In this document: piece after piece, positions 15,833 through 60,507 of the stretch | How positions within the stretch are numbered: the first letter of the stretch is position 1 | How the letters are laid out: each line of letters starts with the position of its first letter | From: an uncultured Methylococcales bacterium | GTDB lineage: Bacteria > Pseudomonadota > Gammaproteobacteria > Methylococcales > Methylomonadaceae | Length of the DNA stretch: 64,000 nucleotides | NCBI GenBank assembly: GCA_913019935.1 | Contig: CAJVZC010000002.1 | Location: 1-64,000, forward strand | Direction: 5' to 3' | Translations under genes and position numbers: made by a program | Notes under the pieces: generated by a model | The model's input: the letters and a program-made list of their open reading frames with translations, nothing else | Databases searched by the model: none | What the model was told of the DNA's origin: nothing

Positions 15833-16594
15833 TTAGCCAACCTCTTTTTGGGTAAAGTGCGCAAAAGCATCCTGAAGGTTTTCTGCATGAACCTTTTCTA
15901 TCACCTCACTCACCGTTCCCGTTACTTTAACTTTTCCATGGTGCAATACAACCAATTGGTCGGTTGAATACACTTCATCAATCAAATGCGTTGCCCAAAG
16001 GACCGCTAACCCTTGTTCTTTTGTTAGGTCATGAATATAGCTAACTATCGCTTGCCGTGAAGGGACATCCAATCCAACTGTCGGCTCATCTAACAACAAC
16101 ACTGATGGCTTATGCAATAACGCTCTTGCTATTTCTACACGGCGCCGATGACCGCCATTTAAATGACGAATTTTCTCATTCAAACGCTCAAACATTTCAA
16201 AGCGTTCTAATTCCTGTTGAATGATGTTATGTGCTTGTTTTCGAGAAATTCCATGCAAAGCAGCATGGTAATGTAAATTTTGCTTAATGGTTAAATCCAG
16301 ATCCAACGTCGATTGTTGAAAAACCACACCCAATTGAGACAGTGCCTTAAAACTCGACTTTTTGATCTCATTACCCCCTAAGGCTATTCGGCCTTCTCTT
16401 GCATGGTAAAGACCTGTAATCAAGGCAAACAAAGTGCTTTTACCGGCACCGTTAGGACCTAATAAAATACAACACTGCCCCCGTTGTACGTCAAAACCAA
16501 CACCCGAAAGCGCCGCTTGAGGCCCATAAGAAAAACTCAATCCTTTGACCGAAAGTGCCACTGAATCTATCATGGCTTTACCACTAGCCCCCAT
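15833..16594 (-). CDS. ABC transporter ATP-binding protein (PQQ-associated type)
   Basis: Walker A GPNGAGKSTLF, signature LNGGHRRRVEIARALLHKP, Walker B VLLLDEPTVGLD. Confidence 0.9.
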   Translation of the reverse strand: MGASGKAMIDSVALSVKGLSFSYGPQAALSGVGFDVQRGQCCILLGPNGAGKSTLFALITGLYHAREGRIALGGNEIKKSSFKALSQLGVVFQQSTLDLDLTIKQNLHYHAALHGISRKQAHNIIQQELERFEMFERLNEKIRHLNGGHRRRVEIARALLHKPSVLLLDEPTVGLDVPSRQAIVSYIHDLTKEQGLAVLWATHLIDEVYSTDQLVVLHHGKVKVTGTVSEVIEKVHAENLQDAFAHFTQKEVG

Positions 16595-55662: not shown

Positions 55663-55738
55663 TGGCTCCCCCGGACGGGCTCGAACCGCCGACCTAGTGA
55701 TTAACAGTCACCCGCTCTACCAACTGAGCTACAGGGGA
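55663..55738 (-). tRNA. tRNA-Asn(GTT)
   Basis: TCCCCTGTAGCTCAGTTGGTAGAGCGGGTGACTGTTAATCACTAGGTCGGCGGTTCGAGCCCGTCCGGGGGAGCCA. Confidence 0.97.
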
Positions 55739-55749
55739 TTTATTTTTTA

Positions 55750-55826
55750 TGGCGCGCCCGGAGAGATTCGAACTCCCGACCGCTCGGTTCGTAGCCGAGT
55801 ACTCTATCCAGCTGAGCTACGGGCGC
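55750..55826 (-). tRNA. tRNA-Arg(ACG)
   Basis: GCGCCCGTAGCTCAGCTGGATAGAGTACTCGGCTACGAACCGAGCGGTCGGGAGTTCGAATCTCTCCGGGCGCGCCA. Confidence 0.97.
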
Positions 55827-56087: not shown

Positions 56088-56409
56088 CCTACGTTTATCA
56101 TCACGCTATTAAATTCTATAATGCTCAGGATTCCTGCGCTGAAAAGCAAAAACCCGCCCAAGAAAAAATTACGCTTTAAGACTTATTAACACCCAAAAAT
56201 ACGATTTTAAAATTCAGTGTTTTTACCGCTCACTAACCAGAAACGACGCCGTCCAAGTTATGTGCACTCAGCCTATTAAAGACTCTATTGCAATCCAGTA
56301 ACGAATTTCCCCACAGGCGTAATATCAAGGGGCGGGGTGATAGAGCGGTACTGGGAAAAGTAACAGCAACGCTAGAGGTAAGAAAAACACCCCTTGTCAC
56401 CCCACTAAT

Positions 56410-57651
56410 TTAGTCGGCTACATTTACTTTCAAGACCGGCGTAAAGCCTATCTCACTTTCAAATGATTCTTTCATAATGCGCCTCACCAAAGGCACATCA
56501 GATCGTTTAACAATAAGACTATCATGAACGGGGTAAGCAGGAATATCATGCTCTTGACTGAGCCTGTGCATTGTCATGATAATAGCATCTGCCTCTCTTC
56601 GTTGCAGGTAACCCCAAGTCACATTAGCAGAACTTAAGGCCTCTAAAAATGGATACTTGCTCACAATAACCTTACCCACATCTTTAACTGGATAGTCTGC
56701 CAGATTAATATGCTTTTCTCTAAGCTTTCCAACTGAGTCTGTAGACCACCGAGTTAATGGTTTTAGTTTGGCCGAATAGGCAACAACCCACTGTTTTACT
56801 ACTGCTCTCGGAAGGCCTTTAATCTGATAAGGGTCTTTATTTAAATTAACAGGAATAACACGACCGTCTAACATACTCGCTACCAGACAAATCAAGGTAA
56901 AATGACTGGCTGTTATATCCACTTCTGCAACGGGTTCATCGTCTATCTTGAGCTGCAACCGTTTGGCCATATTAAGCAGTTGATAACTACCCCCCTCGGC
57001 ATACAAGCGTCCACCATCGGTTAGCACTGGATTTTTATCATCGTAATTAGAGAACGAACGATAAAGCCCAACAAACGAAACATCGGATAACGTATGCTTG
57101 CTCAGGTCATTATTAAGTCCACTGACAATACGGTACTGATCTTGATAGTGCTTAGAGCGACTCATGTTGCTGACCGATTTACCTTGAATCTTCCTACCTT
57201 TCTTATCTCGTTGACTTGGATATCTTGCACGCACTAAATGAGTAAGCGTAAAATCCTTAGCTGTTATTTCAGCGTTTAAACAATAGTCAACAAGCTTTTG
57301 GGTGATGTAATAGGTGGTCGCTATTCGTTCCAATTGCTCCCCTGCTACTTTAACCAAATAACCTTGCTCTACCAAATAACCCGAGACAAAAACAAAGACT
57401 CTATACGGAACGGATGAGTCCGAATAGGCGCCTGTTTTTTGACTTCTATATAACCCCCTATTGAGGTCTAGCTCAGTTAAGGTGATCACCGAAGACAAGA
57501 TGCGAACTAAACAATCGTAACGCTTGTTAATCGTTGCTTCACGCAGCTTATCACCCGCCTCGAATACAGACGGTTCAACTATCTGTTTAAGCAAACTGAT
57601 AGAGTCATCATTTATTGGGTAAAAGGATAGGGAGAAGTAATGTTGTTTCAT
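56410..57651 (-). CDS. compact family-A/T7-RNAP-like polymerase protein (TV-Pol-like), putative
   Basis: motif A-like VAEVDITASHFTLICLVASML, motif B-like LPRAVVKQWVVAY, motif C-like YLQRREADAIIMTMHRLSQEHDIPAYPVHDSLIV. Confidence 0.65.
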   Translation of the reverse strand: MKQHYFSLSFYPINDDSISLLKQIVEPSVFEAGDKLREATINKRYDCLVRILSSVITLTELDLNRGLYRSQKTGAYSDSSVPYRVFVFVSGYLVEQGYLVKVAGEQLERIATTYYITQKLVDYCLNAEITAKDFTLTHLVRARYPSQRDKKGRKIQGKSVSNMSRSKHYQDQYRIVSGLNNDLSKHTLSDVSFVGLYRSFSNYDDKNPVLTDGGRLYAEGGSYQLLNMAKRLQLKIDDEPVAEVDITASHFTLICLVASMLDGRVIPVNLNKDPYQIKGLPRAVVKQWVVAYSAKLKPLTRWSTDSVGKLREKHINLADYPVKDVGKVIVSKYPFLEALSSANVTWGYLQRREADAIIMTMHRLSQEHDIPAYPVHDSLIVKRSDVPLVRRIMKESFESEIGFTPVLKVNVAD

Positions 57652-57775
57652 GGGATCTATTAAACCTAACGACAGTGGAAGCTTGTATTCAAGTAACCAA
57701 CACCATAGCTTAAATTACACCCAATATGGCGCACTTATGGTAATAACTCTTTTCTAGCTAAACTTGTAGTGGTAC

Positions 57776-57973
57776 ATGATGACTACAAAACAGGACAAGA
57801 AACATACGCATCTATTTCCAAGAATGAAATTGGGAACACAGGAACGAGCAACGGAACTGAACAATGGCGGTGCAACACAGATTGTGTTGGATAGATACAC
57901 TAGGGAATCAGACAGAATTAATCCGATTGATTATTCAGATGTGACAACTAATATTACCCAAGAGGAGGAATAA
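57776..57973 (+). CDS. small hypothetical protein, 65 aa, NNGGATQIVLDR core
   Basis: ORF divergent from the polymerase-like gene; core repeated in an adjacent decayed copy. Confidence 0.55.
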   Translation: MMTTKQDKKHTHLFPRMKLGTQERATELNNGGATQIVLDRYTRESDRINPIDYSDVTTNITQEEE

Positions 57974-57975
57974 TA

Positions 57976-58155
57976 ATGGATTCCAAGAAGGTTAAACAGT
58001 ATGTTCCGAAATTGCGAGAAGTTCTGGTGCCTTAAGAAGATTGCAATTAAATTAACAACGGTGGTTCAACGCAGATTGTGTTGAACAGGCATGTGGGAAG
58101 CTCAACATTTAACAAGTCTAAACCAAAGAGTAGCAAGGTTAATAAGGATGGTTGA
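57976..58155 (+). pseudogene. decayed paralogue of the 65-aa ORF (MDSKKVKQYVPKLREVLVP* ... INNGGSTQIVLNRHVGSSTFNKSKPKSSKVNKDG*)
   Basis: near-identical core aacaacggtggttcaacgcagattgtgttgaacagg; internal stops/frameshift. Confidence 0.5.
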
Positions 58156-58293
58156 GTTAGCTTCAATAATTTCCCTAGAATTAGGCGGTAGTTTAAGGAG
58201 TGTACTCGCAAACGTTTTGGTCATCGATAGGAAAAAATGATAGCCAAGTTGCTATTTCAACAAAACATCATACCAAACGAATAGAAGATTATT

Positions 58294-59010
58294 ATGAAGA
58301 CGATTCTATTAATACTTACAGCGGCTCTATTATTACAAGGTTGTACCAACCCTATGTCTCGTAAGTTTCGAGAGACATCCGATGCGGTAAAGGTTAGCTT
58401 CGAGAATATGGCTAGACAAATTAAAAAAGAGGGAGAAGATATTCATAAAGCAAACCATATCAAGTACGTCAAAGGAGGTAAGAAAGAAATACTACAAGCT
58501 GCAATGGCGGCCCTTCTGGAACTAGGGTTTCATATCAATAACCAAGACTACTCTCTAGGTGTATTGTCCGCAACAGCGAATAGAGATAGTACGTTCTTAG
58601 ATGAAGCAGTCTATGCTGCAGAACGTAGACACAGACAGAAGATTGTTAACGTGTTGAAAGATGAGTATCGAGAACTTATGACGTTTGAATCTGACGCAGA
58701 TACGATGGTCAACGCGATACTTAGTCAGAAGAAAGAAGAACTGAATACTATATCTATCAATGTGATAGTTATGGAACGCAAGTTGGACCATCAAGTGTCT
58801 TTGAGGATTACTTATACAGTCTCTCCCTATGTTGGTCCCGAATCAGCTGCAGGAGAATGGTTAAAAATAATTATTAATGCTGGACAACTTCAAGGAAATG
58901 AGTACCCGAAATACACATTACCAGCAAGCACCCTGGCTCTTATTTACAAGAGATTCTGGGATACAACTGAAAAAGAACTATTCCAACAGAACATTATTTT
59001 AAATAGGTGA
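58294..59010 (+). CDS. hypothetical lipoprotein, 238 aa
   Basis: lipobox ILTAALLLQGC; no recognised enzymatic motif. Confidence 0.8.
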   Translation: MKTILLILTAALLLQGCTNPMSRKFRETSDAVKVSFENMARQIKKEGEDIHKANHIKYVKGGKKEILQAAMAALLELGFHINNQDYSLGVLSATANRDSTFLDEAVYAAERRHRQKIVNVLKDEYRELMTFESDADTMVNAILSQKKEELNTISINVIVMERKLDHQVSLRITYTVSPYVGPESAAGEWLKIIINAGQLQGNEYPKYTLPASTLALIYKRFWDTTEKELFQQNIILNR

Positions 59011-59021
59011 GGAGAGCCATT

Positions 59022-59426
59022 ATGAGAAAAATCATACTAGCAGTTACATTAATGATGATGGCTGTAGCGGCACATTCAGAGACTGACATTAGTTATGGCG
59101 CATTGAAAATGCATCTAGAGGAAGGGGTGTCAACTCAACGAGATGTAATTAAGTTGTTTGGTTCACCCGACAATATGATGATGGATCGCCAAGGAGAACT
59201 TTGGACATACGACCGAGTGACCAGAACTTCAACCACTACTGATAATAGTGCAAATGAATCTAACACGGTAGGTGGAAGTATTATCATCTTGGCTGGTAGT
59301 ACATCTGACTCTAATCGTAAAGCTCAATCAACAACATCAAGCTCAACTAAAACTATCACTGCTATATTAGAGTTCAATAAGGGTGGTGTATTAATCAAGT
59401 CCTCAATAAGAACTAGTAAGTACTAG
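59022..59426 (+). CDS. BamE/SmpA-like small secreted protein
   Basis: signal peptide MRKIILAVTLMMMAVAAHSE; LEEGVSTQRDVIKLFGSPDNMMMDRQGELWTYDR resembles SmpA/OmlA; GGAGAG upstream of the trimmed ATG. Confidence 0.7.
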   Translation: MRKIILAVTLMMMAVAAHSETDISYGALKMHLEEGVSTQRDVIKLFGSPDNMMMDRQGELWTYDRVTRTSTTTDNSANESNTVGGSIIILAGSTSDSNRKAQSTTSSSTKTITAILEFNKGGVLIKSSIRTSKY

Positions 59427-59524
59427 AGCAACTTAATAGGAGCTAGCTGTGTCCTGAAATATGGATCCTATTTTAACCTACGCTGGACTAGTACTAAGTT
59501 TTAACCACCACTCAACAAGATAAA

Positions 59525-60201
59525 ATGATGGCTATAGCTATTACTTATCCCCTACTGCTCCTAATAGCCCCCATTACCGCCCAAGCACACTCTGGTAGAA
59601 CTGATGCTAACGGTGGGCATATGAACCGTAAGACTGGTCAGTATCATTGTCATAAGTCGTATTGTTCAGCACCGTCAGTCCCATCAGCAACACCAATTTA
59701 CATTTCCAATAACCAGAGCGCGCCCTCTACTCGTTACAATCGCAAGGATTGGCCTCATTGGATTGATGAAGACAACGACTGTCAGAACACTCGTGCAGAG
59801 GTTCTAATTGAGTCATCTCAAATTCCAGTAAAGTTCAAACGTAACAGAGGTTGTAGTGTATCTCACGGCTTATGGGTTGGTCCCTATACAGGGATGACCT
59901 TCACACAAGCATCAGACCTAGACATTGACCATATTGTGCCTTTGGCTCATGCGCATAGAACAGGCGGTGCTAATTGGTCTAGGGAGCAGAAAAGAAGCTT
60001 TGCTAATGACCCCGACAACCTCATTGCTATCGATGACAGGACTAATCAAGAAAAAGCGACAAGGGACCGGTTAGGTGGAAACCGCCCATAGAGTCTTGTT
60101 GGTGTGAGTATGCCAAGAAATGGCAATGGGTTAAGCAGAAGTATGGGCTTGCATGTAGTGAGAGCACGACAAGCATTACCTGTTATGAAAGATACTTGTG
60201 A
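59525..60201 (+). pseudogene. secreted YHYH + HNH/GmrSD-like (DUF1524-type) nuclease with an apparent -1 frameshift near 60083-60090
   Basis: AHSGRTDANGGHMNRKTGQYHCHK; DLDIDHIVPLAHAHRTGGANWSREQKRSFANDPDNLIAIDDRTNQEK; C-terminus WCEYAKKWQWVKQKYGL continues in the -1 frame. Confidence 0.7.
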
Positions 60202-60415
60202 CTAGCGCTAACACTTTAAATTAACCCCATTCAAAAACAACATAAAAATGTCTTAGGGTATTATATCGTTGGTTGCACGCTAATTCCCCCATAGCCTACA
60301 ATCTAGCTCAGACCGTTGAAGGGTATAAAAAAATCGGGGTGATTGTTACTTATGACTGTTAACTTTATAGAAGCATAATCCGCGTAGGTTATGTGTTTAA
60401 AAGATAACTGCAATA

Positions 60416-60507
60416 TGGCGGAGAGAGAGGGATTCGAACCCTCGATGGGCTTTAAAACCCATACTCCCTTAGCAGGGGAGCGCCTTCAGCCGCTCGGCCA
60501 TCTCTCC
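60416..60507 (-). tRNA. tRNA-Ser(GCT)
   Basis: GGAGAGATGGCCGAGCGGCTGAAGGCGCTCCCCTGCTAAGGGAG...GGGTTCGAATCCCTCTCTCTCCGCCA, long variable arm. Confidence 0.97.

Follow-up and report, generated by a model that had tools for sequence, protein, structure and literature searches.

A small DNA polymerase I-like protein in a tRNA-linked variable region of a Methylococcales genome, with bacterial homologues mostly encoded near recombinases

Results

The gene lies in a variable region that ends at a tRNA gene

The window analyzed here is a 64,000-nucleotide stretch from an uncultured Methylococcales bacterium (contig CAJVZC010000002.1). On its minus strand, positions 57651 to 56410 form an intact open reading frame of 413 amino acids, and the opposite (plus) frame contains 18 stops. 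An earlier reading made from the letters alone (the sequence-only reading) had proposed this frame as a compact polymerase-like protein; the frame was confirmed, and the peptides VAEVDITASHFTLICL, LPRAVVKQWVVAY, LQRREADAIIMTMHRL, and PVHDSLIV that it had picked out were all found in the protein, in the same order.

The gene is located between tRNA-Arg and tRNA-Ser, with tRNA-Asn and tRNA-Arg at 55663 to 55826 and tRNA-Ser(GCT) at 60416 to 60507 on the minus strand. As had been suggested, this is a tRNA-linked accessory region (56100 to 60415), and its interior differs between congeners. Its right boundary is the 3' end of the tRNA-Ser gene: homology to the sister genomes G371 and G372 ends there or within a few bases of it (~60412), and the contigs of G369 and G370 break at the same point. 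The left limit is uncertain (56100 to 56340): the left flank is conserved among relatives to about 56097, and homology to the sister genomes ends on this side at about 56097 to 56255. The region also carries a gene for an HNH nuclease (GmrSD_C-like; PF07510, E = 1.3e-7) on the plus strand at 59525 to 60091, which is probably exported and appears to be cargo. A related HNH nuclease gene, about 82% identical at the DNA level across 146 bp, was found near the G371 polymerase at a tmRNA site (L054, 1 to 219). Upstream of the polymerase gene are two near-duplicate short coding stretches, at 57866 to 57910 (NNGGATQIVL) and 58056 to 58100 (NNGGSTQIVL).

No integrase, helicase, or capsid gene was found near the polymerase gene within the window, in agreement with the sequence-only reading. 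A search for an attachment-site repeat gave nothing convincing; the only direct match, the 10-bp CAATATGGCG at 57722 to 57731, just upstream of the polymerase start, and at 60411 to 60420, at the tRNA-Ser 3' end (E = 0.64), could be an attachment-site relic or due to chance.

Related copies were present in the sister genomes. G371 has an intact polymerase gene, 61% identical, behind a tmRNA gene and adjoining a gene for a cI-like repressor. In G372, all that is left at the corresponding site is a C-terminal remnant, with the HD of motif C changed to YG, and G369 has a remnant at another location, with HD changed to PD. Comparison of the window gene with the near-identical C-terminal 111 codons of a sister genome (UWMA-0325) gave a dN/dS of 0.127; in the comparison with G371, synonymous sites were saturated. 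The window polymerase is intact and, judged from these codons, under purifying selection. The tRNA-Ser boundary, the variable interior, and the remnants in sister genomes make the island look mobile in origin and partly decayed, with its polymerase gene intact.

The protein belongs to the phrog_4756/divPolA2 family

Single-sequence searches of the 413-aa protein against Pfam, NCBIfam, and PDB sequences gave no match. In PHROGs, however, phrog_4756, annotated as "unknown function," matched residues 49 to 403 with an E value of 1.2e-26, so the open reading frame is not a chance one. The phage branch of this family was published in 2024 as divPolA2 (Yutin et al., PMC11348598). Since a published divPolA2 representative, AUR84708, matches phrog_4756 at E = 1.8e-91, the two names denote one family, and sequence comparison establishes the window protein (56410 to 57651, minus strand) as a member. 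The earlier statement that no recognized domain is apparent thus held for Pfam and failed for phage protein families. According to its authors, divPolA2 has an active palm, lacks an exonuclease, and has an N-terminal domain unlike known ones; the phages that encode it also encode another DNA polymerase, and a role in repair or as an RNA polymerase was proposed (PMC11348598). No study assigning a function to divPolA2 was found in the literature searched.

AUR84708 itself (L099, 25472 to 26761) is atypical of the family: its motif C reads FDE, and its steric-gate residue is Glu. Two divergent polymerase paralogues occur within single phage genomes, namely, IMGVR_UViG_3300016478_000063 (L031 and L034) and Aeromonas phage 2L372X, as has also been reported for divPolA2 (PMC11348598). 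Neither the window protein nor alignment A3 or A4 retrieved a relative when scanned against IMG/VR.

The catalytic residues of A-family polymerases are conserved

Conservation was examined in an alignment of 54 homologues from phages, plasmids, gammaproteobacterial genomes, IMG/VR, and Pseudomonadota genomes. The sequence-only reading depended on the motif A Asp and the motif C His-Asp pair, and both were conserved: D245 (motif A; 56917 to 56919, minus strand, as are all residue positions below), aligned to the DYSQIELR of Pol I, and D377 (motif C) were present in 54/54 sequences, and H376, adjacent to D377 (56521 to 56526), was present in 53/54. Also invariant were G214, R231, Y275, K286 of motif B, and R215 (57007 to 57009), which lies in a GGR(L/F)Y hairpin and corresponds in the hhalign alignment to the arginine in the TGR of Pol I. 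The motif B pair R282-x3-K286 on the O-helix (56794 to 56808) has its Arg in 52/54 homologues. The profile-profile comparison with Pol I, which aligned GGR with TGR and D245 with D705, was weak (P = 0.009), and that with a T7 RNA polymerase (RNAP) set was weaker still (P = 0.022). The T7 RNAP query was a 100% match to FJ881694, and later comparisons used record DNA.

At the E710 steric-gate position of Pol I, five residues after the motif A Asp, the window protein has H250 (56902 to 56904); His is found there in 37/54 homologues and Glu in only 1/54, and two IMG/VR members read DYSQIH where Pol I has DYSQIE. Most homologues have N, L, V, or M at the F762 position; the residue of the window protein is V290.

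The predicted fold is that of an A-family polymerase palm

An AF2 model built from 23 sequences had a mean pLDDT of 76, exceeding 90 across most of the palm. When it was compared with the PDB using Foldseek, 62 matches had an E value of ≤1e-3, and the best 50 of these 62 were all A-family DNA polymerases (best E = 9e-6; probability, 0.99 to 1.00). Global TM-scores against Pol I were low, about 0.33, as expected from a common core combined with a different N-terminal half. In the BFVD, the family itself came out on top, including a member from Rheinheimera phage Barba31A named DNA polymerase. Pol I-like proteins of phages ranked next, and after them came TV-Pol-type replication proteins of virophages, namely, one of Zamilon virus (E = 4e-4) and a helicase/primase/polymerase of Qinghai Lake virophage (E = 8e-3). 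The proposed palm of the family A/T7 RNAP type was therefore recovered, with the conserved catalytic set, so that the proposal withstood both of the refuting checks named with it (no palm fold; motif A Asp and HD pair variable among homologues); the similarity to TV-Pol, also proposed before, was borne out by the shared motifs and by these weaker virophage matches. That the window protein is an A-family polymerase is, in our judgment, close to certain, and the gene encodes a small relative of DNA polymerase I that, to judge by the motifs and the model, is probably active. The earlier observation that a 3'-5' exonuclease is missing agrees with the lack of a Pfam match and with the length of 413 aa.

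The model also contains an N-terminal globular domain at residues ~38 to 116 (57304 to 57540, minus strand) with an H-E-H-E-E order of elements, a possible winged helix-turn-helix. HMM matches of this domain were weak (E of about 0.2 to 0.8), and Foldseek likewise gave weak matches to the winged helices of PadR, MarR, and RTP (E of 0.01 at best). When profiles were searched against PDB sequences, no polymerase was returned, only weak winged helix-turn-helix and TRF2 matches. We infer from the model that residues 38 to 116 may form a winged helix.

Bacterial homologues are mostly encoded near recombinases

A profile search found a homologue in 25/399 Pseudomonadota genomes, most of them outside the class of the window genome. 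We then scanned 20 loci, over about 8 kb, with HMMs for tyrosine integrases and serine recombinases, each made from proteins identified at the loci themselves, using as controls 20 regions at fixed offsets in the same genomes. A tyrosine integrase or serine recombinase was found near the polymerase in 18/20 loci (in one of the 18, the integrase is a fragment truncated by the end of the locus), compared with 1/20 controls (Fisher's exact test, P of about 3e-8). An integrase adjoined a tRNA gene in about nine to ten loci. Among the Pfam families of 109 neighbors, Phage_integrase (9) and Resolvase (7) led, followed by restriction-modification methylases; no helicase was among the 25 commonest of the 78 neighbor families. 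The neighborhood survey suggested by the sequence-only reading therefore placed the homologues mostly beside recombinases on islands. Given these 18/20 related loci, the missing integrase seems to be a local peculiarity of the window copy.

Several elements were checked by hand. A Sphingomonas plasmid element comprises tRNA-Leu, an integrase, an HTH protein, the polymerase, and vsr with a C5 methylase; a second one (G102) comprises a tRNA, an integrase, AlpA, and the polymerase; and two further loci (G112 and G119) have an integrase. In IMG/VR contig G426 (L028/L100/L101, 9705 to 21444), three identical copies of a 3,347-bp unit are present, with phage-like genes beside them; the unit encodes a polymerase of the divPolA2 type together with a tyrosine recombinase. 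The identity runs 24 bp longer than the unit, which suggests a short repeat at the joins; the unit may represent a minimal mobile element, or it may have arisen as an artifact of assembly.

A small protein with the pattern CxxC...CxxxxCxLYxxR is encoded between integrase and polymerase in two gammaproteobacterial elements (L058, 2288 to 2641; L060, about 16090 to 16200) but the alphaproteobacterial loci lack it. Since the pattern occurred in 2/16 hand-picked loci and 0/20 survey loci, the idea of a conserved Cys-rich partner was abandoned.

Discussion

Because its bacterial relatives are mostly found beside integrase or recombinase genes, the protein probably serves small mobile elements as the enzyme that copies or primes their DNA. 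The reading that we favor, with a probability of roughly two in three, is that of a compact exonuclease-less A-family polymerase belonging to a TV-Pol-like integrative mobile element, priming and/or copying the excised element; a replicative or priming role as such is given about the same weight. "Primase-polymerase of a small mobile element," one of the functions named by the sequence-only reading, thus stands as the best functional reading. Nothing was found in favor of a template-independent polymerase, and a defense role of the gene itself was not retained, restriction-modification genes appearing near homologues only as apparent cargo.

A-family enzymes catalyze two-metal nucleotidyl transfer, with the motif B Arg and Lys contacting the triphosphate and the hairpin Arg contacting the template. 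By analogy, D245 and D377 would carry out two-metal catalysis, R282 and K286 would hold the incoming triphosphate, and R215 would hold the template, while the winged-helix-like N-terminal domain, in place of the thumb and exonuclease of Pol I, may hold the element DNA. The enzyme would then prime and/or copy the excised element with host factors. Since the Glu of the sugar gate is replaced, here by His, sugar selection may be relaxed, so that ribonucleotides could be accepted and RNA or mixed primers made; a relaxed gate would suit a primase. In a bolder and rather unlikely version, the integrative-element branch would be a self-contained primase-polymerase, and a minimal mobile replicon would need no more than a recombinase and this polymerase. 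The winged helix would recognize the element DNA, and the relaxed-gate palm would start chains without a separate primase; the 3.35-kb unit of G426 is a possible example.

Proximity to recombinases demonstrates that the genes reside on mobile elements but not that they act in replication, and a cargo gene would look similar. Against a replicative role, neither an SSB partner nor a D5 helicase lies beside the gene in the window, and homologues in large phages have variable neighborhoods and coexist with another DNA polymerase, which led the divPolA2 authors to suggest repair or transcription (PMC11348598). We consider it improbable that the protein is accessory cargo with a function in gap filling or repair. 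The location of the phage members outside the replication module (PMC11348598) would fit such a role, as would the frequent restriction-modification and other defense genes nearby. However, the polymerase is repeatedly accompanied by a recombinase, and in one case a 3.35-kb unit seems to contain hardly anything besides these two, as would be expected of a core gene more than of cargo.

Slightly less probable still is a single-subunit RNA polymerase with a T7-like function, transcribing element or phage genes. Motif C is mostly HDS, HDA, or HDG, resembling HDS in T7 RNAP rather than HDE in Pol I, and the steric-gate Glu is absent. One member of alignment A5 weakly matches PF00940 (RNA_pol; E = 0.11), two match the RNA polymerase family phrog_414 (best E, 0.0046), and structural matches to mitochondrial RNAP led the divPolA2 authors to leave this function possible (PMC11348598). 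On the other side are the best 50 of 62 Foldseek matches, all to A-family DNA polymerases, the weaker hhalign result with T7-type RNAPs than with Pol I, and the loss of the conserved fingers Tyr (Y639), the residue eight positions after the motif B Lys being mostly N or F. Finally, the island without an integrase and the decayed remnants in sister genomes (HD to YG in G372 and HD to PD in G369) would fit a nonfunctional relic in the window genome, which is very unlikely given a frame intact over 413 codons, a full set of catalytic residues, and a dN/dS of 0.127.

To our knowledge, few types of primase are known besides DnaG and AEP. Bacterial divPolA2 members that accompany recombinases and mostly lack the sugar-gate residue of Pol I connect this family with the TV-Pol proposal and bear on the question of whether one A-family protein is enough to prime DNA synthesis. 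The protein family was already known; what is added, according to the literature searched, is a bacterial integrative-element branch with a quantified linkage to recombinases.

The window protein shares its motif set and palm fold with bacterial Pol I and T7 RNAP. It differs from them in its length of 413 aa and in lacking exonuclease domains and a Pol I-type thumb, and from T7 RNAP also in lacking the fingers Tyr and a T7-type N-terminal domain. With divPolA2, it shares the family profile, palm motifs A, B, and C, an unusual N-terminal domain, and the lack of an exonuclease. The published members are phage borne, whereas the window copy is bacterial and island borne, as are its closest relatives (G371 and Sphingomonas); in the tree, they form a separate branch (support, 86/85) with long branches.

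The 2008 definition of TV-Pol drew on mobile elements and described integrase, resolvase, and restriction-modification genes as neighbors (Iyer, Abhiman, and Aravind, PMC2579912). Its members are standalone proteins of 400 to 600 aa, like the window protein (413 aa), and have the same minimal A-family core with the hairpin Arg, the motif A Asp, RxxxK, and the motif C Asp. The context is also alike in the bacterial homologues, although the window locus itself has no recombinase. In contrast to TV-Pol, the window has no D5 helicase, and the modeled N terminus is alpha/beta and winged-helix-like rather than all-helical as in TV-PolN; since D5 helicase and TV-PolN mark only subsets of TV-Pol, their absence is no bar to membership. 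Profiles A1 and A5 located no recognizable TV-Pol in Microcystis phage Ma-LMM01 (best E, 0.007). We therefore do not formally file the window protein as TV-Pol, the likeness being drawn from the published description and the virophage structural matches.

The PolA-SSB primases (CcPol-MP) are likewise A-family polymerases of mobile elements without a canonical primase, and CCPol-MP is able to prime DNA (PMC7581432, PMC10061031); unlike them, the window protein has no recognized OB-fold SSB or helicase gene among its neighbors. The SCCmec enzyme CCPol keeps both E710 and F762 of Pol I and favors dNTPs (PMC7581432), whereas the window protein has H250 and V290 at these positions.
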